Source of the DNA: Leclercia adecarboxylata
Lineage (GTDB): Bacteria; Pseudomonadota; Gammaproteobacteria; Enterobacterales; Enterobacteriaceae
Assembly (NCBI GenBank): GCA_002360945.1
Contig: DERO01000004.1
Location: 138,781 to 202,780, forward strand
Direction of reading: 5' to 3'
DNA: 64,000 bases
Under the pieces are notes generated by a model. That model had not been told where the DNA came from, ran no database searches, and saw nothing but the letters and a program-made list of their open reading frames with translations. A program made the position numbers and the translations under genes. Of this stretch, positions 1,681 through 47,687 are shown one piece after another (position 1 is the first letter of the stretch; each line of letters begins with the position of its first letter).

Positions 1681-1914
1681 ATGTCAGCGTTCGATACACA
1701 AGTAGCAATGGACATTGTGACCCGTTCCACGGGAGGGTTTAGTTATGACACGCTGGCCAGGGCATTGATTTTAAATGTCCAAACTGAAAACTCTGAGGCT
1801 CTTCTGGAGGAGTGCCAACGCTTTTGCCTGGCGCTGGAAGAAAGGGGGCTGTTGAGAAAATGCACGCATTGTACCCATCCTCAGGATGTCTACTTCGAGT
1901 ATGTTCCTCATTAA
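1681..1914 (+). CDS. small protein of unknown function, first gene of the dpd island
   Basis: This 77-residue protein starts at ATG 1681 behind a strong GGGGGAG ribosome binding site. I do not recognise the family. The N-terminal half (FSYDTLARALIL, then LLEECQRFCLALEERGLL) looks helical, with a spacing that would fit a small winged-helix fold. The C-terminus CTHCTHPQDVYFEYVPH has two cysteines and three histidines and could be a beta hairpin or a small metal site. It lies 103 bases upstream of dpdC on the same strand, so it may be a regulator or accessory of the modification genes, or simply island cargo. No function is assigned. Confidence 0.6.
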   Translation: MSAFDTQVAMDIVTRSTGGFSYDTLARALILNVQTENSEALLEECQRFCLALEERGLLRKCTHCTHPQDVYFEYVPH

Positions 1915-2017
1915 TCGTCTATCCCTGGAACAATTTTTGGGGATGTAATACGCGTTGCTTTTAACGGTCGCCTTTCTGAGATACCTTTGTGACAGAAAAT
2001 TGAGTCGAGGGTAGGGT

Positions 2018-2974
2018 GTGAACCGCATCAATCTGATCACGACATGCACCAATGGCAAGCATGGCGACAAGAATAACCTGTTGAGTTTAAGTGAATATTT
2101 GTCTAAGGGGATCGCTTCTGCCGATCTCATTGACGCCTGGTGCGATACCTTAAATGCCACGCTTTCATCGTCCGCGTTAATACAGGTTGAAAACCTTTAT
2201 AAAGGCGGCCATTGGGCAACAGCAAAAGCCATACGTGAAGAATATTCGGTTGATTTGTGGGCTCTCTCTGCTGGACTGGGTCTTTTGCATTGCGAAGATA
2301 AAGTCGTGCCGTATAAAGCCACCTTTGCCAAAGGATATCAGGAGTCGATCCCCTTATTTACCGATGTCTATTCCGGAAAAACCTTTCATAAAGTCTGGTG
2401 GCAGGCGATTACGGACAGATCCTTTTTTAAATCTGCACATCCCACTTCCCTCACGGAGTTGATGAGAGCGAGACCGGGGGATTATTTTGTTATTTGCGGC
2501 TCGCCTGATTATATCAATGCAATAGAATCTGATCTCGTTAGCGGTTTGAATTATCTGGAATCGTCGAAAAAACAACTCGTGATTATCACGTCAAAAAAAA
2601 CTACGGCCTCTCTGGACGACTATTTCCTGACGAGTAACCATAATATAGCCGGGTGGTTTAAATGTAATATGTTGATGCTGAATATCATGTTAGCGCACTA
2701 TTTTATAAAAACCTTTAAGGTTAACGCGCATGATGATTTTAGCGTTGTTACACAGCTATTATCGGCACAATTTCACGCCTTACCTGCGAAAGCAGCCACC
2801 AGGGGCGTTAAACGACAGGCTGAGGAAGTCCAGGCCTATATTTCAACGCTTCTGCAGCAGCAACCCGCTATTAGCGCAACGCAGGCACTGCGCACCTTTC
2901 GTGATGCAGGCAACGCGTTTGAGGAAAAGCGTTTTCGGGCGCTGTTTCAGGCTGTCGCAACCGGCAAAGCCTAA
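2018..2974 (+). CDS. dpdC: DpdC-like preQ0-DNA tailoring protein (DUF6884/YaaA-like fold)
   Basis: Likely converts preQ0 already placed in DNA to the amido-deazaguanine form, the role assigned to DpdC in the described system. The 318-residue protein begins at GTG 2018, preceded by GAGGGTAGGG. Its N-terminal domain shows the signature of DUF6884-type proteins: a beta strand ending in LITTCTNGKHG (usual form SCSKSK), ENLYKGGHW, then LWALSAGLGLL (usual form LSAKYGLL) and VVPYKATF. Residues from about 150 onward are less conserved and include GDYFVICGSPDYI. Assignment to DpdC rests on fold motifs and on position directly before dpdA and dpdB. The gene is noticeably AT-rich. Confidence 0.72.
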   Translation: MNRINLITTCTNGKHGDKNNLLSLSEYLSKGIASADLIDAWCDTLNATLSSSALIQVENLYKGGHWATAKAIREEYSVDLWALSAGLGLLHCEDKVVPYKATFAKGYQESIPLFTDVYSGKTFHKVWWQAITDRSFFKSAHPTSLTELMRARPGDYFVICGSPDYINAIESDLVSGLNYLESSKKQLVIITSKKTTASLDDYFLTSNHNIAGWFKCNMLMLNIMLAHYFIKTFKVNAHDDFSVVTQLLSAQFHALPAKAATRGVKRQAEEVQAYISTLLQQQPAISATQALRTFRDAGNAFEEKRFRALFQAVATGKA

Positions 2975-3045
2975 TGTCCCGACTGAAGTTTTGTGATAAA
3001 ATCCCGCGTTTTTTAGACTGTGTTGTGGCGTGACAGGAGAGCAGG

Positions 3046-4296
3046 TTGTCGAAGCTAAAGTACTTTTTCCCTGATAGTCAGGATTTTATCGATCCAAGTT
3101 TCGACTTCGTGCGTGAAACGCGCAATGAACATCGTGTACGCCAGCGCGATGACCATTATCCGCATGAAGTTTTTCCCTACCCTTATGATGGGATGCTGGT
3201 CTCCAAGGCGGTAGTTGATGGCCTGGGGGGCGGTGAGAGTAAATACACGCGTGCTCAGAGACTGCGCTACTTCCGCAATGGCATGAAGCATTTCTTCCGT
3301 TTGCCGGAAACAATGGAGGCGATGGGAGATTGCGGGGCATTTACTTATGTGAATCAGGATGTTCCTCCCTATCGCGTCGATGAAGTCATCGAGTTTTACG
3401 AGACATCGCGTTTCAATTACGGCGTCTCGCTTGACCATATTATTTTTGGTTATGAAAAGCCTGGCGAGGTTTTCAGTGGCGACGTGCTGGCTGAATGTCG
3501 CCGTCGTCAGGATATCACCCTGACGCTGGCGCAGGAGTTTCTGTCATCATCGAAAGGGAGTTGTTTCCAGCCCTTTGGCGTCGCGCACGGCTGGAACAAG
3601 CACTCGTATCGCCAGTCTGTCGAAGCGTTGCTGGCTATGGGCTATAAAAATATTACTATGGGGGGTATGGTGCCGTTGAAAACGACACAGATCCTTGAAA
3701 CCCTTGTAGAAATTAAGCCCATCCTTAAAAGTGATACCCATATTCATTTACTGGGTATCGCCCGCCCGGAGAGCTTTGCTGATTTTATCCGTTTGGGTGT
3801 GACCAGCATCGACTCCACCACACCGCTACAGCAGGCCTTTAAGGATCGTAAAAATAATTACCATACGCCTGATGGCCCGGCTTACACCGCGGTTCGTGTA
3901 CCGCAATTCGATGCCAATCCCAGCCTGAGTCGCAAAATCAAATCAGGGGTTGTCGATCAAGATTTAGCGCGTCATTTAGAGAAAGATGCCTTGCATGCCC
4001 TGTTCGAATATGACAAAGGGGCGATGACGCTGGCAGATACGCTGGAGGCGCTCATGGCCTATGAACGCTTACATGCCGGAGAGAAAGATGCAGAGAAGAT
4101 GCGTCCTGACTATGAGCGAACGCTTGGCGATCGGCCATGGAAACAGTGCCAGTGCAATATTTGTAAAGCGATCGGTATAAACGTCATTATTTTCCGCGGT
4201 GCCGAACGCAACCGACGCCGGGGATTCCACAACATTCAAGTGCTGTATAGTCGATTACAGCGCACATTGTCATCACGCTCAGAGGAACAATCATGA
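3046..4296 (+). CDS. dpdA: DpdA, TGT-like DNA 7-deazaguanine transglycosylase
   Basis: Exchanges guanine in DNA for preQ0, as tRNA-guanine transglycosylases do in tRNA. The 416-residue protein starts at TTG 3046 behind CAGGAGAG; no ATG fits as well. Family residues are visible: the first catalytic aspartate in MGDCGAF (D95), the FGVAHGW and GGMVPL segments of the base pocket, HLLGIARPE, and the nucleophile region SIDSTTP (D256). A C-terminal zinc site is built by C368, C370, C373 and H395, the CxCxxC...H pattern of TGT enzymes. Its stop overlaps the dpdB start as ATGA, so the two are translationally coupled. Confidence 0.9.
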   Translation: MSKLKYFFPDSQDFIDPSFDFVRETRNEHRVRQRDDHYPHEVFPYPYDGMLVSKAVVDGLGGGESKYTRAQRLRYFRNGMKHFFRLPETMEAMGDCGAFTYVNQDVPPYRVDEVIEFYETSRFNYGVSLDHIIFGYEKPGEVFSGDVLAECRRRQDITLTLAQEFLSSSKGSCFQPFGVAHGWNKHSYRQSVEALLAMGYKNITMGGMVPLKTTQILETLVEIKPILKSDTHIHLLGIARPESFADFIRLGVTSIDSTTPLQQAFKDRKNNYHTPDGPAYTAVRVPQFDANPSLSRKIKSGVVDQDLARHLEKDALHALFEYDKGAMTLADTLEALMAYERLHAGEKDAEKMRPDYERTLGDRPWKQCQCNICKAIGINVIIFRGAERNRRRGFHNIQVLYSRLQRTLSSRSEEQS

Positions 4297-5420
4297 GTGA
4301 GTTTCGTGTCCCTGCCTTGCGTATCCGACAAGGTGAGAAGAGACAACTTTTTAGCCTCGCGATTGAGGGCAAGCAAATCAGTAAGGTTGCTGCGATAGCC
4401 CGTATTCGACGTGGGGAAGAGAGCCTGGTGGGCTATCAGCGTCCCGAAGTACGTAACCATATCCGTGAGATCCAGCGTTATATTGAAAGCGCTAATCCTA
4501 TGATCCCCAACCCTGTCATTATTGCGTTTGACCAGCGCGTTCGCTTTGAACCGCTGTCGGAAAACAGTGATATGGGCCATTTAGTCATTCCTTACTCCGA
4601 AGCACAAGACTTTGAAAAACCGGGTTTTATCGTGGACGGGCAGCAGCGTACTGCGGCTTTACGTGAAGCGGATATCAACTCGTTTATGATGCCCGTATCG
4701 GCATTTATCGCGAACGATGCCGAAGAGCAGCGCGAGCAGTTTATGCTGGTAAACTCAACTAAACCGCTGCCAAAAACGCTGCTCTATGAACTGGCTCCCC
4801 ATACCCATGGTCGTTTGCCGTCAGATTTGCAGACGCGTAAATTCCCTTCGTTATTGACTCAGCGCCTGAACTTTGGGGAAGGGCCGCTTGCTGGACGCAT
4901 TAAGACAGCAACGAATCCGGACGGTGTGATTGCTGATAACTCAATGATTAAAATGATCGACGCGAGCCTGCGTGAAGGGGCACTTTACCGTTTCCGCGAT
5001 CCGGCAACCGGTCTTGGTGATGAAGATAAGATGGTCAAACTGCTGAATCATTTCTGGTCAGCCGTTGAAATTGTCTTTACCGATGATTGGGACAAAAAGC
5101 CTCGCTACTCTCGCTTGTTGCATGGCGTGGGTATTTTTGCGCTGGGCAGTCTTATGGACGAAATCGATCAGGTACATCAGGAGTATCAGGGAGAACCCGG
5201 CTGGACAGACATTCCACCTATTACACGCTTTGTGGCGGAGCTGAACCGCATCAAGCCACTGTGTGCGTGGAGCGCGGGCGTCTGGAATCTCGGCACTGAT
5301 GTTGATGGTCAACCGATTACCCGTAAGTGGAATGAGGTGCAGAATCTGTCGAAGGATATCTCACTGGTGACCGATTATCTGGTGACTAATTATATCAAAT
5401 TAGTTAATGCTACAATTTAA
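4293..5420 (+). CDS. dpdB: DpdB, DndB/DGQHR-type protein
   Basis: Partner of DpdA required for preQ0 insertion into DNA in the described system. The 375-residue protein carries the DGQHR-family signature at residues 115-119 (DGQQR) inside FIVDGQQRTAAL, followed by FMLVNSTKPLPKTL, the same layout as the phosphorothioate regulator DndB and ParB-like proteins. The ATG overlaps the dpdA stop by four bases. It is the last gene of the modification block and is followed 20 bases later by a strong terminator, so modification and restriction genes are transcribed separately. Confidence 0.88.
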   Translation: MSEFRVPALRIRQGEKRQLFSLAIEGKQISKVAAIARIRRGEESLVGYQRPEVRNHIREIQRYIESANPMIPNPVIIAFDQRVRFEPLSENSDMGHLVIPYSEAQDFEKPGFIVDGQQRTAALREADINSFMMPVSAFIANDAEEQREQFMLVNSTKPLPKTLLYELAPHTHGRLPSDLQTRKFPSLLTQRLNFGEGPLAGRIKTATNPDGVIADNSMIKMIDASLREGALYRFRDPATGLGDEDKMVKLLNHFWSAVEIVFTDDWDKKPRYSRLLHGVGIFALGSLMDEIDQVHQEYQGEPGWTDIPPITRFVAELNRIKPLCAWSAGVWNLGTDVDGQPITRKWNEVQNLSKDISLVTDYLVTNYIKLVNATI

Positions 5421-5440
5421 GCCATAAGTTAAATTTCAAG

Positions 5441-5467
5441 CCCCTTATTGTTAATAAGGGGTTTTTT
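5441..5467 (+). terminator. intrinsic terminator after dpdB
   Basis: CCCCTTATT (5441-5449) pairs with AATAAGGGG (5453-5461) around a GTT loop and is followed by six T residues. It closes the dpdC-dpdA-dpdB unit. Confidence 0.92.
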
Positions 5468-5733
5468 AAAATTAATGAAATGATTTCATCAGGTAATTTG
5501 TCTTTCCGGATATTATTTCTTCAGTTGCCATAATGAATCTGCTAAATCATTAAAAATGCCTGATTTTCATTGTTTTTTATTACTGTGACCGCGGTCACTG
5601 CTCGTTTGAATTTCGCCTGAAACCCTTATTATTTGTAATTGCTTAATAGGATTATTCTCCGTATATTTATTTTCAATACCGATGCGATTCATTTTCCGTA
5701 ATGGAAACTCAGCACTGATTGCCAATAGATATC
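5468..5733 (+). promoter_or_regulatory. promoter region of the dpd restriction operon with a 14-bp palindrome
   Basis: This 266-base AT-rich gap has no gene. It contains a perfect palindrome, GTGACCGCGGTCAC, at 5585-5598, GC-rich in an otherwise AT-rich context, about 136 bases before the dpdE start. The size and symmetry fit an operator for a dimeric regulator of dpdE to dpdD. I could not place -35 and -10 boxes with certainty; the AT-rich stretch 5625-5680 is the likely promoter area. Confidence 0.5.
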
Positions 5734-8700
5734 ATGACAATACACTCCCGTTCGTTCTCAGCAGGTGATCTGGTGACATCGCCGCGTTTTAGCGGTATCG
5801 CCAAAATTGTCCAGTTTTTGTCCCCAGAGACGGTAGAAATAGCCTGGTTCTACTCCCCCCTTCAGGCGGAGATGTATCGACAGGCTGTGGCGATTAGCAC
5901 CCTGGTGCTGGCTGAGCTGCATGAGGAATGTACTGTCTATTTTCGCTCGCCGACAAGCGGCCTGTGGTGCAGGGCGAGCTACGGTGGCGCAAAACCCGAT
6001 AACAAGCATTGCCTGATGCTCTCCCAGGGGGAAAGCGTGGAGGTTGAACTCTGCGACATCTTTTACCCCAACTATGGAAAGTACCAGCCGATGGATCCTG
6101 CCCATTTCCTGGCTGCCCGTGCTAACGATGCACATGATTTCTATCCGCTGCGTGAAAAATTCGTTAACGCATGGATAAAGCAGCGCGCCGCTTGCCGTTC
6201 AATGTCATCCCTCATTAGCAGCCGTGTGGAAATCGAACCGCATCAAATTGCTGTGGCCTGCCGTATTTTGCAGGATGAGAATCCTAAATACCTGCTGGCT
6301 GATGAAGTGGGGTTGGGCAAAACGATTCAGGCGGGTTTGGTCATTCGTGAGCACGTGCTGGAGTTGAAACGGAACGCCAGAGTGCTGATTTTAGTTCCGC
6401 AGGCGTTACTCTCGCAATGGCGGAACGAGTTGATAAACCGTTTCGATCTCGCGGATGTGATGGAAGGCGGACGCTCCTGCCAGATCCTGCTCCGCACCCA
6501 TGCACAGCTGGATGACGTGGTGCCGGAGAAATGGCCGCCGACACTCATTGCGGTTGATGAAGCGCATCAACTCGCCAGTCTCGCCTGGGGCCAGCAGCAT
6601 ACGTCTCGCTTTAAAAAGATGGCACGTCTTTGCCATCTGTCCCGGGTGGCACTGTTGTTATCAGGCACGCCGATGAACGGTAATGAGCGTAACTTTCTTG
6701 CCATGTTGCACTGCCTGAACCCCGAAGGATGGACGCTTGACGACGCTGGCATCGCGCAGTTTTTACGGCGCACAGAGGAACGTACGCATCTTGGAGGGAT
6801 TTACAGTTCACTGCAACCCGACACGCCCAATGCGGTGATCGAAAGCAGCCTCGAAGAGTTGAGTGAGCAATTTGGCGATGATGAGCCTTTGATGGCCCAG
6901 GTTGCCGCACTTCGTCCGCTGGTCGATTTCTTCGCGGAAGAGGCAGGGGAGGAACGTACTCAACGTATCCTCGCGCTGCGGAACTGGATCGGGGAAAACT
7001 ATCGTCTGTACCATCGCTTATTGCGTAACCGCCGTGATAATCCGGCCTTGTCCTGGCTCTTCCCCGGGCTGGATGGCGTACAGATGGCACACTGGGATGT
7101 GGCCCCGAATGAGGTCACGCTTGATGAACTCCTGGAAGAGTACCGAAGCTGTGCCTCTGTCTATCCACATCTGTACCCGAATTTCACCGCCCGGAATGGC
7201 CTGGCATGGCTCGATGCCCATTTTACCAGCCCATTGATACTGACGCGTCTGGCAAAACAGGTACTGGACAACGGGGCGGGGAGTGCTGAGGAGCAGGCGT
7301 TACTGGAGCAGATCATCAGTACGGCGAGGCAAGAGCAGAAACGCAAAGATGATCTGTTAAGTGAGCAACTGGCGCGGTGGTTTACCGAACATCCTCAGGG
7401 GAAAGCGGTAGTCTTTTGCGCTGAAGAGTCAGCGGCAGCGCGCTTATTCGTCAAACTGGGCATGACCCTCTCGCAACGTGTGATTCGTCACCAGCCGGAT
7501 GAGCCCGATAATGTCATGACGCTCGCCGGCAACTGGCAAATTATGGTGTGCGATAAGCGCGGAGAAGATGGCCTTAACCTGCATGGCGAACAGCGTCTGG
7601 CCGTTCATTATGCATTAAGCCGCGACTTCAACCGCTTCGAGCAACGCCTTGGCCGCTTTAATCGCTACAGTTCAACGCTGAATTCCAGCAAGGTACAAAG
7701 CCTTATCCTGCTGCCGTCCCGGGCAAGCCTCACGCAGGCGTGGCTGACGCTGCTGGATCAGGGCATTGGGCTGTTCAACAACAGTGTTGCAAGCCTGCAG
7801 TTTGTGCTTGAAACCAAACTGGAAGAGACATGGCAGCGTTTTCTGCGTGAAGGGGTGAAAGCCCTGGAGGCGGCAACTGAAGATTTCCGTGGTGAATCCG
7901 GGCTGATCGCGCTGGAGCGACAGCGTGTGAATACCCAGGAGAACCTCCTGTCCATGGAGCAGGAGGTCATTGCAGCGCGCGAGTTTGCCGAGCAACTCCT
8001 TCATGCCGAGCATGAGGCGGAGGAGCAGGCGGTTGATCTGCTGCGATGGGTAACAGATGCGTTGAAATTTGTTCAGTATCCGGATGAGAAAAAAGGGTTC
8101 CGTTTGCGCTTTGAGCGCGGAAACCGGCGTGAAAAAACGCGGGTGGATATCCCGACCTTCCTGAATAAATGTCTGCTCGGGATGGATTACTCAAAAGGGT
8201 ATCCCCCAACCAGCGCAGCGATGAGCCTTGAACGTGGTGAGGTCAGCACCAGCGATAGCGCCCTGTACCCGTTCCGCTATGGTCAACCTTTCCTCGAAAC
8301 GGTCTGGGATCTGATGCAGGAGGATCCGCGTGGGACGACAATGGCGATTTTACGCATGGAGAAAAGCAGCGGCAAAAAGCGCTATTCGCCTGCCCTGTAT
8401 TGTCATTTTCACTGGCTGGTTACGGCGGATGCCGAAGGGGATTTTTCTGCATCAGGGCAACGTCGCCGGGATGCGAAATTTGCGCCGCGAATGGTGAGCT
8501 TCTGGCTTGATGACTTAAACGAGGTCGCCAGTGAAGAGACCTGCGAGACGCTGGAAAAACCTGACGATCTCAAAGGCAATGACGACTATGAAGATTACAA
8601 CCTTCTCTCAGAAGGTTGGGTTTCGATCGAGCAATGGTTCCCGGCCCCGAACTGGCAGGCCACCATTTTGAAAATGGCGCAGGAGGCGCAAGCCATCGCA

Positions 8701-8805
8701 CAGCAGCGCGTCGAAAATGCCGAAGGCGTGACCCTGCATTATCAACTGATGGCGATTAAGGCCGTTATTCTTTGTACACGGGAAACATTCCTGGGAGAAA
8801 ACTAG
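5734..8805 (+). CDS. dpdE: DpdE, SNF2-family helicase
   Basis: Superfamily-2 ATPase of the SNF2/RapA type, part of the restriction arm that acts on DNA lacking the deazaguanine mark. About 1023 residues. The helicase core is complete: PHQIAVA before motif I, DEVGLGKT (D190-T197), DEAH (275-278), LLLSGTPMNG (motif III), AVVFCAEESAAA (motif IV region), and GEDGLNLHGEQ with FEQRLGRFNRY (motifs V and VI). The long C-terminal part (about 690-1023) has a charged helical stretch and no known domain. I chose ATG 5734; an in-frame TTG at 5719 is possible, and neither has a strong ribosome binding site. First gene of an eight-gene overlapping operon. Confidence 0.88.
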   Translation: MTIHSRSFSAGDLVTSPRFSGIAKIVQFLSPETVEIAWFYSPLQAEMYRQAVAISTLVLAELHEECTVYFRSPTSGLWCRASYGGAKPDNKHCLMLSQGESVEVELCDIFYPNYGKYQPMDPAHFLAARANDAHDFYPLREKFVNAWIKQRAACRSMSSLISSRVEIEPHQIAVACRILQDENPKYLLADEVGLGKTIQAGLVIREHVLELKRNARVLILVPQALLSQWRNELINRFDLADVMEGGRSCQILLRTHAQLDDVVPEKWPPTLIAVDEAHQLASLAWGQQHTSRFKKMARLCHLSRVALLLSGTPMNGNERNFLAMLHCLNPEGWTLDDAGIAQFLRRTEERTHLGGIYSSLQPDTPNAVIESSLEELSEQFGDDEPLMAQVAALRPLVDFFAEEAGEERTQRILALRNWIGENYRLYHRLLRNRRDNPALSWLFPGLDGVQMAHWDVAPNEVTLDELLEEYRSCASVYPHLYPNFTARNGLAWLDAHFTSPLILTRLAKQVLDNGAGSAEEQALLEQIISTARQEQKRKDDLLSEQLARWFTEHPQGKAVVFCAEESAAARLFVKLGMTLSQRVIRHQPDEPDNVMTLAGNWQIMVCDKRGEDGLNLHGEQRLAVHYALSRDFNRFEQRLGRFNRYSSTLNSSKVQSLILLPSRASLTQAWLTLLDQGIGLFNNSVASLQFVLETKLEETWQRFLREGVKALEAATEDFRGESGLIALERQRVNTQENLLSMEQEVIAAREFAEQLLHAEHEAEEQAVDLLRWVTDALKFVQYPDEKKGFRLRFERGNRREKTRVDIPTFLNKCLLGMDYSKGYPPTSAAMSLERGEVSTSDSALYPFRYGQPFLETVWDLMQEDPRGTTMAILRMEKSSGKKRYSPALYCHFHWLVTADAEGDFSASGQRRRDAKFAPRMVSFWLDDLNEVASEETCETLEKPDDLKGNDDYEDYNLLSEGWVSIEQWFPAPNWQATILKMAQEAQAIAQQRVENAEGVTLHYQLMAIKAVILCTRETFLGEN

Positions 8806-11279
8806 TGGAGTTTGATGATGCCCAATGGCCTTTACTGCGCGATGCGCTGAAAGGTAATCGCGATCGCCAGCATGAAATAACAGAGCCCTTTTATCGTCGG
8901 TTATTAACACTACAGAGCGATGACCGTTGTGGGCCGGGCGATCGACTCCATGCTTATTACGATGCGTTACAGTGTGCCAGAGCGACAGGCGCCCGCTTGC
9001 TTCGCCTGCCATCGCCTGACAAACAGCTGAGCGAAGATACCCTGGCGCGTTTTGGACTGAAACGTTGCCCCGACTTACTTTCAGAGATCATGCTGGCGGA
9101 CGCATCACTCGCAGTGCCTGCGGCCTTTGAGGCGGTATGGCGGCATGAAAAGAGGCGTACGTTATCACCGTCGCCGCTGGATGCCCTGATTGCCAGCCAG
9201 CTGAAAGATCCCACTTACCATCACTATACCTGCGCAGGCCAGCAGGCTGCTGTCCGGGCAGTGCTGACCAGCCCGCAGGATAAAACGCTGATCGTCAATT
9301 TACCGACCGGGGCGGGAAAGACATTTGTCATCCATGCTCTGATGTTTAACACCCCAAAAGACCAGCTGACGCTGGTGATTGTGCCAACGATAGGTCTGGC
9401 TATCGAACAGGCTCAGCGAGCCAAAGAGATGCTGGAAAAGGCCAACGCCGATCACGGTGGTGCCTATGCCTGGTACGGCGATCAGTCATCGCAGGAGCGG
9501 GCGGAGATCCTTCAGCGTCTCAAATCCGGTGAACAGCGTATTCTGTTCTGTTCGCCAGAGTCTGCCAGGGGCGGGTTGCTCACCTCACTGTTTATGCTGG
9601 CTGAAAAAGGTCAGCTGGGCGCAATGGTAGTGGATGAGGCCCATCTAATCGATCAATGGGGCGCGGAATTTCGTCCTCAATTTCAGTTGCTTTCTCCTCT
9701 GGTTACCTCACTGACCGATGTCTCTCCTCAGGGATTTCGAACCGTACTTCTCTCCGCGACCTGGCATCAGGCGACCCTGGATACGGTGAAGCAGCTCTTT
9801 GTCAGTGATGCCGATAACTGTATCGACATCAATGGCAGCTTTTTACGCCCGGAGCCAGCCTGGTTTGTTAACCGGGAAGCAGATGAACAGCATCATCGTC
9901 AGCGTGTCATGGAGGCCATTGCGCTATTACCACGCCCCTTAATCGTCTACGCGACAAAAGTGGGCGAGGCAGAGTACTGGTATCAATGGCTTCAGGAACA
10001 GGGCTATCAGCGAAGTGGTCTGTTCCATGGCAATACGTCAGTAAAAGAGCGCGAGCGCCTGATTGATGACTGGCGAGACGATCGCCTGGATATCATGGTG
10101 GCAACGTCGGCATTTGGTGTGGGAATGGATAAAAGTAACGTGCGCGCCGTGCTGCATGTTGCGGTTCCGGAGAATATCGATCGCCTGTATCAGGAGAGCG
10201 GCAGGGGAGGGCGTGACGGCAAGGCCTGTATCGCCTGGTTGATCTACCATCCTGCACAGCTGAACGTCGCGGCCAGACTGAATCGCCGAAAGCTCATTGG
10301 TGCCCGCAAAGGCTTAATGCGCTGGCAGGCGATGCATCAGGATGCACCCCTCGTCGCAAATAATCGCCTGACTGTCGATCTCGCCAGCCGTCACCCCGAA
10401 ATCAATTTTGGTTCTGACAATAATGTGGCCTGGAACTGGCGAACCCTGTTGCTGATGCGCCGGGCGGGTATTTTACGCCTGCACTTCCCGGCACCGGATG
10501 TGAAGAGCGCTGTAGACGACCTGTCTGATGATAAAGCCGTTGACCGCTATTTCGACGACTACTTTAGCCACGTTCAGGTTGAACTGCGTCGTGGCGATCA
10601 CCTGTCTCCGGCATTATGGCAAAACACCCTGCAACGCTATCGGGCAGAGGAGTTCCTCTCCCGGGAGCGCGGATTCACGGTGCTGGCCGAATGGCTCGAA
10701 AATCCCCTGCAGGAAGGATTTTGTAAACAGCTCGGCAAAATTTATACCGTGAACGGCGATATGCCGGAGCTCGCCTGCGGCGGTTGTCCCGCCTGTCGCG
10801 CCCAACAGCGTGGCCTTAATACGCCAACGCTCGGCAACACGGTGCATATGAGTGGTTTTCGGGAAGACAGCTGGTTTGGCGAGCTGCAACGCGTCTACTA
10901 CAGCGAAAATACGGCGGGAAAATTACTGCTCCGACACTGGCAATACTGGATTGCAGGCCTGCTGCAGCAAAGGCGCATTATGGCCATCCGCGCCAGCCGG
11001 ACAGTGCTGGATGAACTCGCCAAAATTCTCCCGAAAGGGACGCCGTTCTGGTGTGCGCTGGAACCGGACGATCGCAACCTTTTCTGGGATGAACTCATTC
11101 TGGTTATGCCGGAGGACCATTTCCCGCTGACCGAAAAAAATGATGGTTTGAACCGAATTTATGTTGCCCCTCGCCAGCGCAAGGATGCTTTGCATCCCGC
11201 GCGTGAATGGTGGGAGAGCGACCCAGAGGCGCAGAGCCTGGAACATTTTCAAAGGATCCTAAGCGATGTCAATAATTAA
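8805..11279 (+). CDS. dpdF: DpdF, RecQ-like helicase
   Basis: ATP-dependent DNA helicase of the RecQ branch, 824 residues, in the restriction arm. Motif I LPTGAGKT lies at 166-173, DEAH at 277-280, then LLSATWHQAT (motif III), LFHGNTSVKERERL, VATSAFGVGMDKSNV (motif V) and YQESGRGGRDG (motif VI). A cysteine cluster near residue 657 (ACGGCPAC) resembles the RecQ zinc region. The start is GTG 8805, which shares its G with the last base of the dpdE stop (TAGTG) and has GGGAG seven bases upstream; an upstream TTG at 8772 is less likely. Confidence 0.88.
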   Translation: MEFDDAQWPLLRDALKGNRDRQHEITEPFYRRLLTLQSDDRCGPGDRLHAYYDALQCARATGARLLRLPSPDKQLSEDTLARFGLKRCPDLLSEIMLADASLAVPAAFEAVWRHEKRRTLSPSPLDALIASQLKDPTYHHYTCAGQQAAVRAVLTSPQDKTLIVNLPTGAGKTFVIHALMFNTPKDQLTLVIVPTIGLAIEQAQRAKEMLEKANADHGGAYAWYGDQSSQERAEILQRLKSGEQRILFCSPESARGGLLTSLFMLAEKGQLGAMVVDEAHLIDQWGAEFRPQFQLLSPLVTSLTDVSPQGFRTVLLSATWHQATLDTVKQLFVSDADNCIDINGSFLRPEPAWFVNREADEQHHRQRVMEAIALLPRPLIVYATKVGEAEYWYQWLQEQGYQRSGLFHGNTSVKERERLIDDWRDDRLDIMVATSAFGVGMDKSNVRAVLHVAVPENIDRLYQESGRGGRDGKACIAWLIYHPAQLNVAARLNRRKLIGARKGLMRWQAMHQDAPLVANNRLTVDLASRHPEINFGSDNNVAWNWRTLLLMRRAGILRLHFPAPDVKSAVDDLSDDKAVDRYFDDYFSHVQVELRRGDHLSPALWQNTLQRYRAEEFLSRERGFTVLAEWLENPLQEGFCKQLGKIYTVNGDMPELACGGCPACRAQQRGLNTPTLGNTVHMSGFREDSWFGELQRVYYSENTAGKLLLRHWQYWIAGLLQQRRIMAIRASRTVLDELAKILPKGTPFWCALEPDDRNLFWDELILVMPEDHFPLTEKNDGLNRIYVAPRQRKDALHPAREWWESDPEAQSLEHFQRILSDVNN

Positions 11280-12162: not shown

Positions 12163-15315
<3,153 letters not shown>

Positions 15316-15329
<14 letters not shown>

Positions 15330-16059: not shown

Positions 16060-19000
16060 GTTCGGTAACCATAGAAAAACTGTACGAAGTTCTGGATGAA
16101 CTGGAAGCGCGCGAGAATGCGCTTCTGGTGTGGGGAGATACCGGCGGCTTTTTCAATGATGACGAGATCAATGACGTCATTAAGGAAAAGTTGCCGAATG
16201 AGGATCCCGTTGAGGTCCTGACGGAACTCATCGATAAGGCGATGCTTATTCAGGTTCCTCATCCCTATCTTCCGTCCGCATGGCGTACCCGCATGGGGGA
16301 GTCGGTTCATCTCTATCGCAACCAACGTCAGTGGTTTCTCGAGAAACCCCTCGAAACCAGCCGGACGCTGGTTTCAGATTTTCGCTTTATACGGCAGCAG
16401 CGAACCTATCCGGACCGTAAACACTTACCGGAGGATTTGCTCGCTCAGTGGCGGGATGACCTGCCTCTGAGTGAGCGAGAGCTGAACATCATGCGCGCCG
16501 CGTTAGCGCCGGTCGACAAATTCCTTCTTGCGGGTTTCCAGTCGCGTGCGACGTCGCGCATTATCCACTTCTGGCGGCGTCACAGCGCCCCTGTTGATAG
16601 TGCCAGCGGAACCATCGTGTGCGCAGGCACGGGCAGCGGCAAAACGCTCTCTTTTTACCTGCCAGCCATTACCAGCCTGGCGGAAGAGATTTGCCGCAAC
16701 GCGCAGCCTAAGGTCCGCATTCTGGCCATTTATCCGCGTAAAGAGTTGCTGAAAGATCAGTTTATGGAAACCTGGGCGCAGTGCCGGAAACTGGACGCCT
16801 TTCTTGAAAGTAACGGTGCGCGTAAGCTGCGTATCGGCTCTTACTACGGCGATACGCCCAAAAGCGTGAAAGATGCGCAAGAAAAAATTGAAGATAAGGC
16901 CGGGATAGCGTTCGATCTTCTCCGCTGTCCGGTTAAAGGCTGCGGGGGCGACATTCACTGGCGTCGTGAAGATATCCTGGCAGGAAGAGAGATCCTGCGT
17001 TGTAAAAAATGTCAGCACCAGATCGACAATAGTGAAGTCCTTGTCACCCGCGAGACGCAGCGTAACACGTTGCAGCCAGACATCCTTTTCACCACCACAG
17101 AAATGCTCAACCAACAGCTGAACAACCGGTCGGCCCAGAAGTTGTTTGGCACGGGAAGAGACGCCGGGCCGAAGCTGGTTCTGCTGGACGAAGTGCATAC
17201 CTACGGCGGCACGACGGGGGCGCAGACGGCCTACCTGTTGCGGCGATGGATGCAGCGTGGCGGCAACCTGCCCCACTTCGTCGGTCTTTCCGCAACGCTG
17301 GCAGACGCGCAGGCATTTTTTGCTGAGCTTATCGGTGCTCCGGTAGGCAATGTTGAGCTTGTCCAGCCGCTCGAAGACGAGATGATTGCCGAAGGGGCCG
17401 AGTATCTGCTGGCGTTACGCGGCGATCCCGTTTCAGAGACCGCTCTGCTTTCCACGACTATCCAGACCAGTATGCTGACGACGCGAATCCTGGATACCAA
17501 CGAGCCCGTCTCCGAAGGGACATGGGGACAAAAAACCTTTGTTTTCTCAGATAACCTGGATGGGATTAACCGTTTATACGGGCAACTCAGCGATGCTGAA
17601 GGGTGGGACGTCGGCGGACCTACGCCGGTAACAAGTCATGCACCGCTGGCGTCGTTACGTGCTTCTCAAGGCAGCGTTAACAAACAGACTGAGTTGGGAC
17701 AGAACTGGCGGGCAAGTGAAAAGATCGGCCATCAACTGAGTGTGCGGAAACGCGTATCGCGTACTTCCAGTCAGGATGCCGGGGTTGATGCACTGGCTGA
17801 CATCGTTGTGGCAACGGCCTCTCTGGAGGTCGGGTATAACGATCCGCGCGTTGGCGCGGTGATCCAGCATAAAGCACCGGGCGATGTTGCCTCCTATCTG
17901 CAGCGAAAAGGGCGTGCAGGGCGTCCCAGAGGTATGCGCCCATGGATGCTGATCGTCCTTTCAGAATTTGGCCGCGATCGGGTTGCTTTCCAGCGCTATG
18001 AAGAACTCGTCAGCCCTGAAATTAAACGTCAGGGCCTGCCGATGCGTAACCAGCATATTCAGAAAATGCAGGCGGCGATGGCAACACTCGACTGGTTGAG
18101 CCAGAACGGTAATTTCTGGGATATATGGTCGTTGCTGCGCTATCCGGGTAAAAGCGACTGGAAGACTACACAATACAATGAGTTGCAGACGCTGATTGAA
18201 AGCGTGATACAGGGTGGTAGAGCGCTTAATGCGTTAACAAAATATTTATGCCACGCTTTGCAGCTGAAGGATGAAGAGGTGCAACCTCTGTTATGGAACG
18301 CGCCTCGCTCGCTCATGTTTGAGTTTCTTCCGACGCTGTTACGTAATCTGAAAAGTCACTGGGCGGAAAATGGTCAGCCCTGGTCGATCCCGTCGAACAG
18401 CGGGCGCTCGCCTGCGCCTGAATTTATTCCCCAGACATTATTCAGCGATCTCAATCTCCCGAGCCTGTCTATCCGGTTAGAACGCAACACCCGCAAGGGT
18501 GACAAATGGGAAGAACTTCCGTTCTGGCAGGGAATGCGGGAATTTGCGCCAGGTCGCCTCTCTAAACGCTACGCGGTGAGCAGCGATAAAAATACGGACT
18601 GGCTGGTGCCTGAGGGATTCGAACCCGCTATCGGAAATTACTCGGCAAATTTCCCGATTCACGAGGCTTTTGGCGACGCTTATCAGCTTGAGTGTAAGAT
18701 TGAGCACAACGACCAGCTAATCAATATCGTTAAACCTTCCCGGGTATTGACGAAAAGAGCCGATATCAAGCGGATCGGTGATAAGAGTAACGCCCAGCTG
18801 TACTGGCATTTGCATCTGGTCAATTCAGATGCAGCCCTTTGCCACGATGTACCCAAAGGGGCATGGCGGCCGGTGTTGCGCGACGTCAGTTTCTTTAACC
18901 ATCAACATATGACCGCCCTTGAGCTGGTGCGTTACACCACCGGGGCTCTGGCTTCTTTACGCTTCAAAAACAAGCAGAAAGATCGCGCCTGGATTGATTT

Positions 19001-20507
19001 TCAGTGGACTGAAAACGGGCAGATCGCCGGGGTTGGCGCACGCCAATGGGTTGACGCCATGCGCCTGCGTTTTGTTCTCAGCCATGAAGAGGTTGCGCGG
19101 CTGGTGAACAATCCAGACATTTTGCGAGGATTGCGCCCGGTCTATTTCCACCATCTGGTAAAAAGCTTACCGATCTTTGAATTTGATGAGTTCAAAGCGA
19201 ACTGGGTGATAGAGTGTTTTCTGGCGCTTCTGGCAGAAACCATGATGGTCAAACCGGACCTTACGCTGCGTGAAGCGCTGGCTTATATCGCCACGGAAGA
19301 GGGTATTAAAGCGCTTCCTGAGATCCCTGCCAGCCTCTTCCAGCCCGATCAGTTTGACGATGAAGGAACGGAACAGCAGCTGCAAATCGCGTTGCGGGAG
19401 CTGCTGTCCAGTGTCGACGTGCAGCAGCAACTGCTCAATTGTGCTGAGGTCCTGTGGAAGCCCGTAAACGAACTGGAGGGCTTCACCGACTGGGCGCGTC
19501 AGGTACTGGCGGATACGTTGGCTGCAGGTGTTCATCAGACACTGTGCTGCATTTTACCTGATGTTGACGAGAGAGCGGTGGTAACCGAATCCCGTTGGGT
19601 ACAGGATAACGAGGGACGTAACGAATGGCTGGAGGTATGGCTTACGGAAGTCGAATCCGGTGGCAGCGGCATCCTTGTTCGTCTCCAGGAAGCCTGGTTC
19701 CGCGATCCTGTTCAGTTCCTCAACATCATGGTCAGAAACCTTTCACCGGGGGATTACGAACAGATTGATTACGATCTACAAAATCTCCTTGAGATACTGA
19801 AAGTGTCTCCGGAACTGCAGAATGCCTTCCGCCAGGTTCGGCAGGCAGAAAATTACGAGGCGCGCAGAGAGGCAAATAAGCAGCTGCAGTTCGAACTGCG
19901 TCGCCTCGGGTTCAGACTCTCGCATAGCTTTACCACCGTCCTGTATTCGCGCATTTTGCGGGCGGGCAGTTCGGACGCCACGGATCATACGATGCAAACG
20001 CTGCTGGCAAACTGGCGTGAGCTTGAAACACGGGCCGCCATTGAGTTCAATCTTAACATTGCTGCCCACGCGATGGCCGTGGAAGCGTGCGGTGAAGACG
20101 CTGGCGCAGCAGAAATCTTTTTAGCCCAGTGCCGTAATCAGAACCTCCTGTGGCCGCGCGGCTATACCATCCGCCAGGCGGAGCTTAACTATTACAACCC
20201 CTACAATTCCCGGAAATTAATTACCGAGCGACTGCTCGCAGGGGCGCTTTTTGATGACAAACTTATCAATGTTGAGGCCTCGTCAGAAAACTGGCTCAAG
20301 GAGGTCCATGATGCGTTGCGTGCCAATGGACGTGTCAATCTGACGATATCCCGTGCCCAGCAGGACGAGTTACATACTTTTATCGCCAGACTGCACATAG
20401 AGCCGTTGGATTACCTTGGGCTGTTCCTGTACCCCCGAATTGGGGAACTGCGTCGCGAGCAGGGTTGCATTATTCTGCGCGTTGAAATGGCGGAGGCACT
20501 GCAATGA
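16056..20507 (+). CDS. dpdJ: DpdJ, large DEVH helicase with zinc ribbon
   Basis: Superfamily-2 helicase of 1483 residues. Motif I GTGSGKT is at 191-197, DEVH at 378-381, VGLSATLADA is motif III, and VATASLEVGYNDPRVG plus QRKGRAGRPRG are motifs V and VI. Inserted between motifs I and II is a zinc ribbon (C291, C296, C316, C319). The C-terminal 800 residues show no known domain. Such MrfA/Lhr-like helicases with cysteine inserts are common in defence systems. It overlaps both neighbours by four bases. Confidence 0.88.
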   Translation: MSSVTIEKLYEVLDELEARENALLVWGDTGGFFNDDEINDVIKEKLPNEDPVEVLTELIDKAMLIQVPHPYLPSAWRTRMGESVHLYRNQRQWFLEKPLETSRTLVSDFRFIRQQRTYPDRKHLPEDLLAQWRDDLPLSERELNIMRAALAPVDKFLLAGFQSRATSRIIHFWRRHSAPVDSASGTIVCAGTGSGKTLSFYLPAITSLAEEICRNAQPKVRILAIYPRKELLKDQFMETWAQCRKLDAFLESNGARKLRIGSYYGDTPKSVKDAQEKIEDKAGIAFDLLRCPVKGCGGDIHWRREDILAGREILRCKKCQHQIDNSEVLVTRETQRNTLQPDILFTTTEMLNQQLNNRSAQKLFGTGRDAGPKLVLLDEVHTYGGTTGAQTAYLLRRWMQRGGNLPHFVGLSATLADAQAFFAELIGAPVGNVELVQPLEDEMIAEGAEYLLALRGDPVSETALLSTTIQTSMLTTRILDTNEPVSEGTWGQKTFVFSDNLDGINRLYGQLSDAEGWDVGGPTPVTSHAPLASLRASQGSVNKQTELGQNWRASEKIGHQLSVRKRVSRTSSQDAGVDALADIVVATASLEVGYNDPRVGAVIQHKAPGDVASYLQRKGRAGRPRGMRPWMLIVLSEFGRDRVAFQRYEELVSPEIKRQGLPMRNQHIQKMQAAMATLDWLSQNGNFWDIWSLLRYPGKSDWKTTQYNELQTLIESVIQGGRALNALTKYLCHALQLKDEEVQPLLWNAPRSLMFEFLPTLLRNLKSHWAENGQPWSIPSNSGRSPAPEFIPQTLFSDLNLPSLSIRLERNTRKGDKWEELPFWQGMREFAPGRLSKRYAVSSDKNTDWLVPEGFEPAIGNYSANFPIHEAFGDAYQLECKIEHNDQLINIVKPSRVLTKRADIKRIGDKSNAQLYWHLHLVNSDAALCHDVPKGAWRPVLRDVSFFNHQHMTALELVRYTTGALASLRFKNKQKDRAWIDFQWTENGQIAGVGARQWVDAMRLRFVLSHEEVARLVNNPDILRGLRPVYFHHLVKSLPIFEFDEFKANWVIECFLALLAETMMVKPDLTLREALAYIATEEGIKALPEIPASLFQPDQFDDEGTEQQLQIALRELLSSVDVQQQLLNCAEVLWKPVNELEGFTDWARQVLADTLAAGVHQTLCCILPDVDERAVVTESRWVQDNEGRNEWLEVWLTEVESGGSGILVRLQEAWFRDPVQFLNIMVRNLSPGDYEQIDYDLQNLLEILKVSPELQNAFRQVRQAENYEARREANKQLQFELRRLGFRLSHSFTTVLYSRILRAGSSDATDHTMQTLLANWRELETRAAIEFNLNIAAHAMAVEACGEDAGAAEIFLAQCRNQNLLWPRGYTIRQAELNYYNPYNSRKLITERLLAGALFDDKLINVEASSENWLKEVHDALRANGRVNLTISRAQQDELHTFIARLHIEPLDYLGLFLYPRIGELRREQGCIILRVEMAEALQ

Positions 20508-21052
20508 TGCATAACACCACGCAACGACAGATTTTTATCCACGGCCCGGGTGGGCAGAGTGCGCTAAAAGAAGTGCTGGGAGCGCAACTGGTTGCACTCA
20601 TGATGAACCCGCAGCCCCTCTGGCTGGTATCGCCCTGGGTGAGTAATTTTACGGTGCTGGATAACCGTTCCGGCAACTGGGATTATGTTGAGCCGGCCTG
20701 GGGTAACCGGGAAATATACTTCCTTGAGTTGCTTGCCGGTATGGTGAACTACGGTGTTGAGCTGAAAATGGTGACCAGAAACCAGCCGATTAATAGCGAT
20801 TTTGTGAAGCAGTTACGCAACCGGCTCCATGAGAAAGCCGTTTTTCATCATATGTGGAGCGATGCGCTTCATACTAAGGGCTTGCTTTCACATGCTTTCT
20901 TTCTGCAGGGTTCAATGAATTTCACCTGGAGCGGATCAAATCGCAATGAAGAATGTATGGTACTGACCAATGACCGGGACATCATCACCACGTCGCGCAT
21001 GGAGTTTGAAAAACAGTACCTCTTTGCGAAGCAGCAGGAGATGAGCGAATGA
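20504..21052 (+). CDS. dpdK: DpdK, phospholipase-D-like nuclease
   Basis: A 182-residue protein with a single PLD half-site: H123-T-K125 followed by G136-S-M-N139 and NRNEE, the HxK...GSxN arrangement of PLD-superfamily nucleases, which act as dimers. It is the only obvious nuclease of the island and so the likely DNA-cutting component. Two adjacent ATGs (20504, 20507) are possible; the first overlaps the dpdJ stop in ATGA form. Its own stop overlaps the dpdD start in the same way. No signal peptide is seen. Confidence 0.85.
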   Translation: MMHNTTQRQIFIHGPGGQSALKEVLGAQLVALMMNPQPLWLVSPWVSNFTVLDNRSGNWDYVEPAWGNREIYFLELLAGMVNYGVELKMVTRNQPINSDFVKQLRNRLHEKAVFHHMWSDALHTKGLLSHAFFLQGSMNFTWSGSNRNEECMVLTNDRDIITTSRMEFEKQYLFAKQQEMSE

Positions 21053-23199
21053 TAGCGCCTCCGCAATGGCTGGAAACGTTTTACCAGTCCAGCGATGAAA
21101 AAATCGATCTCCAGCGCGTGCTTACGCAGCGTTATGCGCCTGAATTCAACGGCTGGCTTTTACCGTTGATTGAGGCGGTAAACAAAAAGCAGATGCCGTG
21201 CTTTATTCCTTCCGCCAGGCCCGACCTGCAGATTTATGCCCTGGCGCCTGATGCCAAAAGTCTGGATGAGCTTCGCCTGTTTTTGATTGCCGGATTGGGA
21301 TCGGCGGATACCCCCTCTGATTTCCTGATACGCTGTAAAGCCGACAACGATGCTGAAGCCTTGTTGCTGGAGCAATCGCCTGACGGATTTATCCGTTTTT
21401 CGCTTCACCCCAGTGTGGAGAAAAATACCGACAGTCGGGATCGCGTATTCGGTTTCCTGGCAGAGTTGAATAATCTTTATACGTTGCGTCCTCAGCTTTC
21501 GTCTGCAGCGCGTCGTCCCACAGGCCGTATTCTTCGTGATTTTTATACGGCTATCTATGCGCGGGATGGGCAGTCTGCCGAGGCTTATCTGGGAGAGATC
21601 CGCAGTAACAACATCCTTTCGCCGCGGAACATTCTCTTCCTTGAGCTGTTCGCACTAGCCGCAGGCTCCCGATGGGAGCATATCGTCGCGCATGAAAAGA
21701 TAGGCGACGTGCTGGCAGGGCGGATCCCTTTAAATATCCAGAGCTTGCTGGTCCGTACCCTTGGCCACCTGGGGTTGGATCGCCTGCTGACGGACGGTTT
21801 CCAGGCGCTGCCTCTGGAAGAAGCGAGGGCGATGAGTCAGCGTTTACTGCCGCTATTCACTGTGACCCCCGGGTTCCCCCATCAGGCAGGCAGTCTGCGC
21901 GACTGGCAACTCTGGTCTACAGGCGCAGCGCTGGTGGGCTTTGCTGGCTGGGAAAGCGCGACCACAATTTTACCCGACCAGTGGAAAACCGCGCTCAGGG
22001 ATTGGGTTGCCGGGCAAACCGCGCCGAATGAAAGCGTCATCCCTGCACCAGTACAGACCCCCGTCCTTATTATCTCCCCTGCCCAGGCGACGGAAATGCT
22101 GCAGGAAACGCTTATTGCCAGTACCGAGCGGGAGCTGGAGATCTATTCGCTGCTCAGCGCGATGCCTGACGTTACCCAACAAACGCTGCGGCAGAATGCG
22201 AAACTGTGGCGTTTATGGGAGGAGCTTCAGGATAAGTTCCGCGTGGGCAACTACGGCTGGATGCAGTGGCTGGATGATATTGGCAACACCAACGACGTGG
22301 CCCAACTCGAACAACTACGTCAACGTATGGACGGGCAGTGGAGAGAGTGGCTGGTTTCATCTTTTGATGAGGCTGTCATCATCGCTTTTCTGGAAAAGGG
22401 CTTAAGCCTCGAGCAAGGCAAAGTCTTGCGCGATACGCTGCCGGTATTTCTTGCGTGGGCCGATCATACCGATCTTTCAGCCTCCTCCCGGCTCTGGCTG
22501 GCCTGGTTAACGTTACTGGCAGCTGACGATATCCATTTCGAACAGGATGTTCGACTGGGCGGCATGCTTCTTGAAAAATGTCTGACAGGACAATTTTCTG
22601 TCGATGAGTACAAAGACGCACTTGATGCCTGCGAGGAGATCTGGGTTAAAAATGCCTCCGTTCGCGCGCTGTCTTACGCTTTTGATACGGCGGAAATATT
22701 GCTCGATGCGCCTGTTCCTGACCCGCAACTGAGACAGAACTATTGGCAGAAATTGCAAATAGAGGCGTTGAAGCGGTGGGGCCGACTTGATAACAGTCTG
22801 CAGCTCTTCGTTCGCGTTTTGGCCACGCATTTTCTCGGGAAAGAGGCTGAAAATGCGTTCCCGCAAGAGCAGGATGACAGTGCAGTCGTCTCTTCCTTCC
22901 ACCGCGATCTTAGTGGGAAACTACTGGGTATCTACAGCCTGACGGAAGGTGCGGCACGTCGTTGTAAAGATGTCTTAATGAGACTGTATCCGGGACTTTT
23001 GGTTGAAACCAATAAAGATCATGTCTCTACACCAGCACTGGTCAATCTGGCTGAAAAAGCGGATTACTTTATTTTTGCCAGTGGTAGTGCAAAACATCAG
23101 GCATTTTATACCGTATCGGATTGCCGCAAAGCGATCATTTACCCCTCAGGTAAAGGGGTATCCAGTATGGTTGCGGCTTTCATACAAGCGTTGGGTTAA
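21049..23199 (+). CDS. dpdD: DpdD, large restriction-arm protein of unknown fold
   Basis: A 716-residue protein ending the operon. It has no motif that I can assign. The N-terminal third contains a domain with GWLLPLIEAVNKKQMPCFIPSA-like alternating strands and helices, the middle is mostly helical, and the final 80 residues (ADYFIFASGSAKHQAFYTV, then YPSGKGVSSMVAAF) resemble a Rossmann-like sensing domain. It is named DpdD by size and by being the one family member not otherwise accounted for. The start overlaps dpdK as ATGA. Confidence 0.68.
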   Translation: MIAPPQWLETFYQSSDEKIDLQRVLTQRYAPEFNGWLLPLIEAVNKKQMPCFIPSARPDLQIYALAPDAKSLDELRLFLIAGLGSADTPSDFLIRCKADNDAEALLLEQSPDGFIRFSLHPSVEKNTDSRDRVFGFLAELNNLYTLRPQLSSAARRPTGRILRDFYTAIYARDGQSAEAYLGEIRSNNILSPRNILFLELFALAAGSRWEHIVAHEKIGDVLAGRIPLNIQSLLVRTLGHLGLDRLLTDGFQALPLEEARAMSQRLLPLFTVTPGFPHQAGSLRDWQLWSTGAALVGFAGWESATTILPDQWKTALRDWVAGQTAPNESVIPAPVQTPVLIISPAQATEMLQETLIASTERELEIYSLLSAMPDVTQQTLRQNAKLWRLWEELQDKFRVGNYGWMQWLDDIGNTNDVAQLEQLRQRMDGQWREWLVSSFDEAVIIAFLEKGLSLEQGKVLRDTLPVFLAWADHTDLSASSRLWLAWLTLLAADDIHFEQDVRLGGMLLEKCLTGQFSVDEYKDALDACEEIWVKNASVRALSYAFDTAEILLDAPVPDPQLRQNYWQKLQIEALKRWGRLDNSLQLFVRVLATHFLGKEAENAFPQEQDDSAVVSSFHRDLSGKLLGIYSLTEGAARRCKDVLMRLYPGLLVETNKDHVSTPALVNLAEKADYFIFASGSAKHQAFYTVSDCRKAIIYPSGKGVSSMVAAFIQALG

Positions 23200-23206
23200 A
23201 AGGGTT

Positions 23207-23275: not shown

Positions 23276-23343
23276 CTTCTATTTTTATGCGTCGATAAAC
23301 ATGCTAAAGAAGTGACATTAACCCCTATCCAGGACTAGCCCCC

Positions 23344-28998: not shown

Positions 28999-29015
28999 CT
29001 GTTCCCGGAGTTGTT

Positions 29016-47661: not shown

Positions 47662-47687
47662 GCTTCAGGTATTATTCAGTGGGACGA

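Follow-up and report, generated by a model that had tools for sequence, protein, structure and literature searches.

Does the dpd locus of Leclercia adecarboxylata encode a complete and working system for labelling DNA with 7-deazaguanines and restricting unlabelled DNA, and do its genes form one unit or several? We address this question for a stretch of 64,000 nucleotides (contig DERO01000004.1, positions 138,781 to 202,780), called the window throughout. With a probability of roughly 0.8 for the whole of this reading, the window holds a complete, probably functional Dpd island that consists of two exchangeable modules, a labelling cassette and a restriction operon, and the small gene orfX at the head of the cassette is most likely its regulator.

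The literature describes a division of labour in which DpdA together with DpdB inserts 7-cyano-7-deazaguanine (preQ0), DpdC forms the amide 7-amido-7-deazaguanine (ADG), and the remaining proteins restrict unmodified DNA (PMC12839542, PMC11888242, PMC5567051). The cluster of Salmonella enterica Montevideo is cited there for restricting plasmid DNA by a factor of more than 1,000 (PMC5567051), and DpdJ is treated as a YprA helicase with the phospholipase D (PLD) family nuclease as its associate (PMC12458937).

A complete set of dpd genes

Eleven dpd genes form open frames on a single strand from 2018 to 23199, in the order dpdC-A-B-E-F-G-H-I-J-K-D, with a gap of 298 bases (5421-5718) between dpdB and dpdE. 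Together with orfX and the spacer behind it, the features are:

1681 to 1914, + strand: orfX, a predicted winged-helix protein of 77 amino acids, outside the eleven named dpd genes (homology, model)
1915 to 2017, + strand: orfX-dpdC spacer, with a hairpin that is strong in 11 of 12 islands and weak in the window
2018 to 2974, + strand: dpdC, DUF6884-like, which by its family would form ADG from preQ0 (PADLOC DpdC)
3046 to 4296, + strand: dpdA, DNA-guanine transglycosylase (NF041059, PDB 7UI4, active-site and zinc residues)
4293 to 5420, + strand: dpdB, DGQHR/DndB-family ATPase partner of DpdA (NF041060)
5719 to 8805, + strand: dpdE, SNF2-type helicase (NF041062)
8772 to 11279, + strand: dpdF, RecQ-type helicase (NF041063)
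11266 to 12162, + strand: dpdG (NF041064)
12162 to 15329, + strand: dpdH, P-loop ATPase (NF041065, GKPGVGKS)
15313 to 16059, + strand: dpdI, start inferred, the longest open reading frame beginning at 15205 within dpdH (NF041066 below cut-off, PADLOC DpdI)
16056 to 20507, + strand: dpdJ, YprA-type DEVH helicase (NF041067)
20504 to 21052, + strand: dpdK, PLD-family nuclease (NF041068)
21049 to 23199, + strand: dpdD, a predicted helical solenoid with a small C-terminal alpha/beta domain (NF041061, model)

The initial annotation, made from the letters of the window, had proposed a complete dpdA-dpdK set and suggested a profile search against Dpd family models as a check. In that search all eleven gene calls hold. 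Nine of the eleven proteins exceed the curated cut-offs of the NCBIfam equivalog models (bits/cut-off: DpdA 577/200, DpdB 468/300, DpdE 909/500, DpdF 796/550, DpdG 275/80, DpdH 679/450, DpdJ 1698/800, DpdK 180/100, DpdD 508/300), and the other two, DpdC and DpdI, are identified by PADLOC. DpdC has no NCBIfam match, is PADLOC's DpdC at 2.8e-128, and resembles Pfam DUF6884 at E 0.0022, below the Pfam cut-off. Among the eight restriction genes dpdD to dpdK only DpdI falls short (NF041066, 121.8 against 150 bits); its sole PADLOC match is DpdI (1.9e-28), and the gene occupies the dpdI position. Such scores across eleven adjacent genes rule out chance.

The residues and motifs fit the same assignments. 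The product of 3046-4296 matches NF041059 at 1.8e-173, exceeds the cut-off of Pfam TGT as well, and aligns over its residues 1-416, that is, all of them, with PDB entry 7UI4, 'DNA-guanine transglycosylase' (1.2e-261). The lack of such a match would, by the initial annotation, have refuted the island, and its reading passes this check. The residues named in advance for this protein, D95 and D256 together with C368, C370, C373 and H395, are all present in the translation. DpdB has DGQQR at residue 115, DpdJ has DEVH at 378 and DpdH has GKPGVGKS at 71, and across 41 aligned sequences the PLD residues H123, K125, N139 and E150 of DpdK never vary. We rejected the possibility that the initial annotation had misnamed a gene. 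For DpdD the structure model has a mean predicted local distance difference test score of 84.9, but a predicted template modelling score of 0.47. The listed dpdI frame starts at 15205 and overlaps dpdH. Since the DpdI models cover its translation only from residue 38-39 onward, the ATGs at 15313 and 15316 are better starts.

The sub-threshold score of DpdI is a point that would favour a silent or partly broken island in a strain whose DNA is unmodified. We consider this unlikely: the eleven frames are open and have specific family matches, the catalytic residues are intact, and a gene at the dpdI place is tagged only 'hypothetical protein' in six other islands as well and named dpdI in two. 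The genome (G000, 4.84 Mb in 52 contigs) has the preQ0 genes folE, queD, queE and queC, all over their cut-offs and on other contigs, and a separate tRNA tgt. A queD gene within the island, as in E. coli, was considered and rejected, the only PTPS-family match of the genome being on another contig. From this gene content we infer that the host DNA would carry dPreQ0 or dADG, the deoxynucleoside forms of the two bases.

Labelling cassette and restriction operon are exchanged separately

To ask how the parts of the island relate to those of others, we compared 12 Enterobacterales islands protein by protein, setting the cassette (orfX, DpdC, DpdA, DpdB) against the restriction set (DpdE to DpdK and DpdD); DpdI was not detected in Serratia, and DpdD of E. 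coli O15:H12 (EcO15) is incomplete because the sequence stretch ends within it. The two halves give conflicting similarities. E. coli JNE181771 (EcJNE) and the Enterobacter plasmid pPOL9A are 98.7% identical in the cassette and 35.1% in the restriction set, and E. coli GE3 (EcGE3) and E. coli F8 (EcF8) 95.4% and 41.0%. The corresponding values are 83.5% and 85.0% for EcJNE and Serratia, 85.9% and 93.6% for Cedecea and P. varia, and 95.8% and 67.2% for Cedecea and Kluyvera.

The restriction sets fall into three lineages that are about 35 to 42% identical to each other: R1 (window, P. ananatis, EcGE3, EcO15), R2 (EcJNE, Serratia) and R3 (EcF8, pPOL9A, Kluyvera, Cedecea, E. pulveris, P. varia). 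Operons of R3 point towards the cassette and those of R1 and R2 away from it, so the operon is inverted in 6 of the 12 islands. With restriction proteins 53 to 54% identical to those of the other R1 members, the window carries what by protein identity is a deep branch of R1, and no cassette among the 12 diverges more than that of the window, with 77 to 80% identity to the 11 others.

Trees of 14 islands, the 12 plus those of Ferrimonas and Tolumonas, were built from DpdC+A+B and from DpdE+F+G+H+J+K+D. In the restriction tree EcJNE, Serratia and Tolumonas form one clade with 100% support and short branches; in the cassette tree EcJNE belongs to a 100% clade that excludes Serratia, and Tolumonas is far off. 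Several inner nodes of the cassette tree are poorly supported (19 to 74%), and the conclusion is independent of those nodes. Approximately unbiased (AU) tests show that each half rejects the tree of the other (4.4e-7 and 5.4e-4).

A difference in rate alone, with slow dpdA and dpdB, fast restriction genes and no exchange, could be advanced instead, and DpdA and DpdB are indeed the slowest proteins (86-91% identity when the window is set against the 11 other islands one by one). We regard this as highly improbable. The discordance is reciprocal: Serratia and EcJNE are slightly closer in the restriction set than in the cassette, whereas EcJNE and pPOL9A are nearly identical in the cassette and far apart in the restriction set. 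Nor would rate bring Tolumonas together with E. coli and Serratia in one tree and place it at a distance in the other, invert the operon in half of the Enterobacterales islands, or lead the AU tests to reject a common tree in both directions.

The junctions are visible in the DNA. JNE181771 and GE3 are 95.5% identical from the tRNA-Leu side through dpdB, where the alignment breaks, to resume at queD (82%). Records L018 (E. coli JNE181771) and L019 (plasmid pPOL9A), whose restriction operons are inverted relative to each other, share 3,825 bases at 97.1%, ending near the dpdB stop. Between GE3 and O15:H12 there is a break inside R1, with 93% DNA identity over most of dpdJ, dpdK and the available part of dpdD and only patches of 72 to 83% in dpdE-H. 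As judged from these comparisons of sequences, the orfX-dpdCAB cassette and the restriction operon are two independently exchanged modules.

Two observations on individual records can be added. The E. coli records L164 and L165 show a second recombination point, which lies close to where dpdJ begins in the restriction operon. E. coli F8 (L163) has an integrase fragment and several insertion-sequence genes nearby, and has kept orfX-dpdCAB and the inverted restriction operon.

A small gene upstream of dpdC

Pfam, searched to E <= 10, has no match for the product of orfX, a gene whose ATG is preceded by GGGGGAG. Searching proteins turned up 46 relatives with E <= 0.01, all of them likewise lacking Pfam domains; their names are mostly absent, several read 'hypothetical protein' and one, in truncated form, starts 'Transcri'. 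With the 8 shorter relatives left out, the other 38 and the query align around an invariant GGFSYDTL core. By tblastn, copies of orfX with 66% identity lie immediately ahead of dpdC in both E. coli JNE181771 and pPOL9A. A separate E. coli match to the window, at 78%, covers positions 2897-5399 and so lies outside orfX. In a sample of 60 relatives orfX was not found in the 59 other genomes.

Its association with the cassette is close. orfX lies directly upstream of dpdC in all 12 Enterobacterales islands compared, which include three further E. coli records; nine islands were found without the help of orfX, the starting point being the window itself or a search with DpdA, DpdH or dpd DNA, and the three E. 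coli records (L163-L165) came from queries containing orfX and are not independent. Among 392 Enterobacteriaceae genomes orfX is present in 8 and DpdA over cut-off in 8, the same 8 genomes, and in each orfX precedes dpdA by about 1.14 kb on the strand that both share. For E. coli, with 5,426 complete genomes, orfX, dpdA and the cassette at >=80% coverage are each found 159 times, the three sets being compared by number; three more genomes match the cassette in part, one of them listed, at 3%. Of the 40 cassette matches listed, 39 span query base 1 to at least 3806, orfX included. Of 85 dpd sources, 10 match a hidden Markov model of orfX, including every one of the nine Enterobacterales sources; most of the others span only 10 kb either side of dpdA.

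The gene has been largely overlooked in annotation. Among the matches listed (25 of the 159 in E. coli) 21 are without a feature and 4 are called 'hypothetical protein', and the feature tables of all five of L018, L019 and L163-L165 have no coding sequence at the orfX place, the table of the plasmid being incomplete by design. The accessible portions of eight papers (PMC12458937, PMC12839542, PMC6884629, PMC11888242, PMC12904381, PMC6159554, PMC12707154, PMC5567051) do not mention it; the founding Dpd papers are outside this set.

A structure model and VIA-align Z scores predict a winged-helix fold, similar to the Fur domain, which fills all 77 amino acids, and orfX lacks the C-terminal metal-binding dimerisation domain of the Fur family. 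Selection was judged from counts of codon changes. The eight other copies compared with that of the window are all exactly 78 codons long including the stop. Changes between the window and L018 number 17, 15 and 39 at codon positions 1, 2 and 3, with similar ratios in the rest, and in all seven comparisons of L018 with the non-window copies silent changes exceed replacements (from 2 and 0 up to 25 and 23).

On this evidence orfX would most likely be a regulator of the labelling cassette, and the regulation may perhaps serve to have labelling precede attack. Several points weigh against this. The orfX-dpdC hairpin is weak in the window (z -1.4), and scans for promoters and terminators yielded no more than shuffled sequences did. 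The fold is predicted by a model and VIA-align Z scores, of which values of 7 to 8 are common by chance, and a Foldseek search with the model gave nothing at E <= 0.001 (best 8.5e-3). When the window copy is compared with each of the eight others, replacement codons slightly outnumber silent ones (26 against 21 for L018). With matches in only 10 of the 85 sources, orfX is not demonstrably universal in dpd systems, and distant copies lie elsewhere in the island in Ferrimonas (beside dpdD, 28 bits) and Tolumonas (behind dpdB on the opposite strand, 5.2e-7).

Alternatively, orfX could be a DNA-binding accessory subunit of a DpdA-DpdB-DpdC labelling machine. It moves with dpdCAB rather than with the restriction operon, as in the 97.1% stretch orfX-C-A-B shared by L018 and L019, and its divergence roughly parallels that of DpdC. 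Against a subunit speak the strong hairpin that separates orfX from dpdC in 11 of 12 islands and the placement of the Tolumonas copy; moreover, dADG was reportedly made in a study of S. Montevideo with dpdA, dpdB and dpdC alone, so orfX would be non-essential for the modification. We therefore think a subunit possible but distinctly less probable than a regulator.

Proposed mechanism and significance

Taking the families at their described functions, DpdA would replace guanine in DNA with host-made preQ0, assisted by the ATPase DpdB, and DpdC would convert preQ0 in the DNA to the amide ADG. The products of dpdEFGHIJKD would destroy DNA without the label; the parts of this attack operon would be three helicases, a P-loop ATPase, the PLD nuclease DpdK, the solenoid protein DpdD and two orphans. 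As a putative regulator orfX would act on the cassette, perhaps so that labelling comes before attack. Since the halves are exchanged independently, their interface is probably the label rather than tight protein contact, if the natural combinations work as we assume.

There is perhaps an even chance that gammaproteobacteria use the Dpd self-label as a common, 'public' mark. One cassette, with orfX as its overlooked regulator and twelfth conserved gene, would then be combined through recombination with three or more attack operons that have diverged deeply yet are interchangeable, and any of these could be attached to the one mark. The attack half is the unexplained part of Dpd; should several exchangeable attack operons rely on one label, all of them must recognise an identical mark or sequence context. 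What this analysis seems to add is a small conserved gene that has been overlooked, together with evidence for recombination of the label and attack halves as units. Because constructs starting at dpdC would lose orfX, it is worth including when dpd islands are cloned or annotated.

Insertion site and origin of the island

Two features define the edges:

1365 to 23204, unstranded: dpd genomic island, an insertion relative to the empty site of the relative G019 (flank alignment and G+C content)
23207 to 23274, unstranded: REP-like palindrome, chromosomal, at the right edge (inverted repeat; also at the empty site)

The island, of about 21.8 kb, runs from just before the stop of patD to five bases past the stop of dpdD and thus lies between patD and the palindrome. 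In G019 window positions 3-1364 correspond to 804-2165 of the empty-site record L026 (94%) and 23205-23762 to 2175-2730 (91%), with 9 bp separating the flanks; two further relatives compared at the site match patD only. The initial annotation had given the island as 1681..23199. The dpd genes are indeed inside this span, but the left edge lies at about 1365, and the first gene included, 1681-1914, is outside the eleven.

The G+C content is 52.8% for 1366-23204 and 61.0% for the rest of the window. Among 197 genomes DpdA is over cut-off only in G000 and in none of the 196 relatives, 59 of them of the same genus; the other matches among those listed reach 37 bits at most (cut-off 200), a level that one expects from tRNA transglycosylases. 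The 64-kb window has no tRNA gene, and no integrase or transposase is among the identified genes of the island, which are orfX and the dpd genes only. It thus lacks the tRNA gene and integrase at the edge that mark a tRNA-borne integrative island, in contrast to L018, L164 and L165, which have tRNA-Leu and an integrase. With these absences the route of entry is not visible, as it would be if the island were ancestral to the genus and had been lost in the relatives. Such a history is nevertheless very improbable given the lack of DpdA in all the relatives, the difference of 8 points in G+C content and the tight empty site of G019, and we favour a gain in this genome.

At the empty site of G019 there are two copies of the palindrome, around fosA. 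We considered fosA (23344-23769) as cargo of the island and rejected it, as the empty site has it too, likewise to the right of the palindrome. This chromosomal gene encodes a FosA8-family fosfomycin-resistance glutathione transferase (NF033933, 308.5 bits, cut-off 300). On the left, patD (aminobutyraldehyde dehydrogenase, window 27-1370) has a second copy on another contig (G000:C27), about 80% identical in the stretch compared, and G019 likewise has a second patD copy.

Other features

Outside the island, 27676-31947 holds genes for an MFS transporter, an enolase-type dehydratase, a DHDPS-type aldolase and a DGOK kinase, apparently a cluster for sugar-acid catabolism, and 39994-45597 encodes a sensor protein of 1,867 residues with protein kinase, AAA_16, GAF, PAS and histidine kinase domains. 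Patches of low G+C content at 46001-48000 and 52001-53000 (0.48-0.53 against about 0.61) are possibly other acquired genes. Among 50,697 phage records the sole DpdA match at E <= 1e-5 is MT835580.1 (L085), a 'Bacteriophage sp.' scaffold that carries no annotation; its DpdA is of the bacterial type and 39% identical.

Comparison with known systems

The dpd islands of E. coli and S. enterica Montevideo, the latter known from the literature, have the same eleven genes of the same families as the window and draw preQ0 from the host pathway. Set against four E. coli islands, the window shows identities of 88-90% in DpdA and 90-91% in DpdB, whereas those of the restriction proteins are only 36% (EcJNE), 42% (EcF8) and 54% (EcGE3, EcO15). 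Unlike the E. coli islands, that of the window is not at leuX, has no integrase among its identified genes and has no queD.

The C proteins of type II restriction-modification systems are small and have a helix-turn-helix fold. orfX is likewise small, has a predicted fold of a DNA-binding type and is encoded next to modification genes; unlike them it is predicted to be a Fur-domain-like winged helix. Its position beside the modification genes agrees with that of a C protein, and its DNA-binding type of fold is a prediction (Foldseek best E 8.5e-3).

Phosphorothioation systems of the Dnd/Ssp type share the DGQHR/DndB family with Dpd through DpdB, but DpdB of the window scores only 13.1 bits on the NCBIfam DndB model (cut-off 328). 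DISARM, Druantia and ARMADA have, like Dpd, a YprA-type helicase and DISARM also a PLD nuclease (PMC12458937). In this comparison their label is methylation, against 7-deazaguanine in Dpd, and with 97 bits for DpdE on DrmD (cut-off 610) the window does not classify as DISARM. The haloarchaeal Dpd-like hybrids called BRIGADE combine 7-deazaguanine genes with a YprA helicase and a PLD nuclease; in that account they usually have two YprA helicases and occur in halophilic archaea only (PMC12458937), whereas the window has the single DpdJ. Dpd itself is widespread, with 37,198 dpd windows in eight bacterial phyla and fully intact operons in more than half of the compositions (PMC11888242). The island of the window is one more instance of this known Dpd system.

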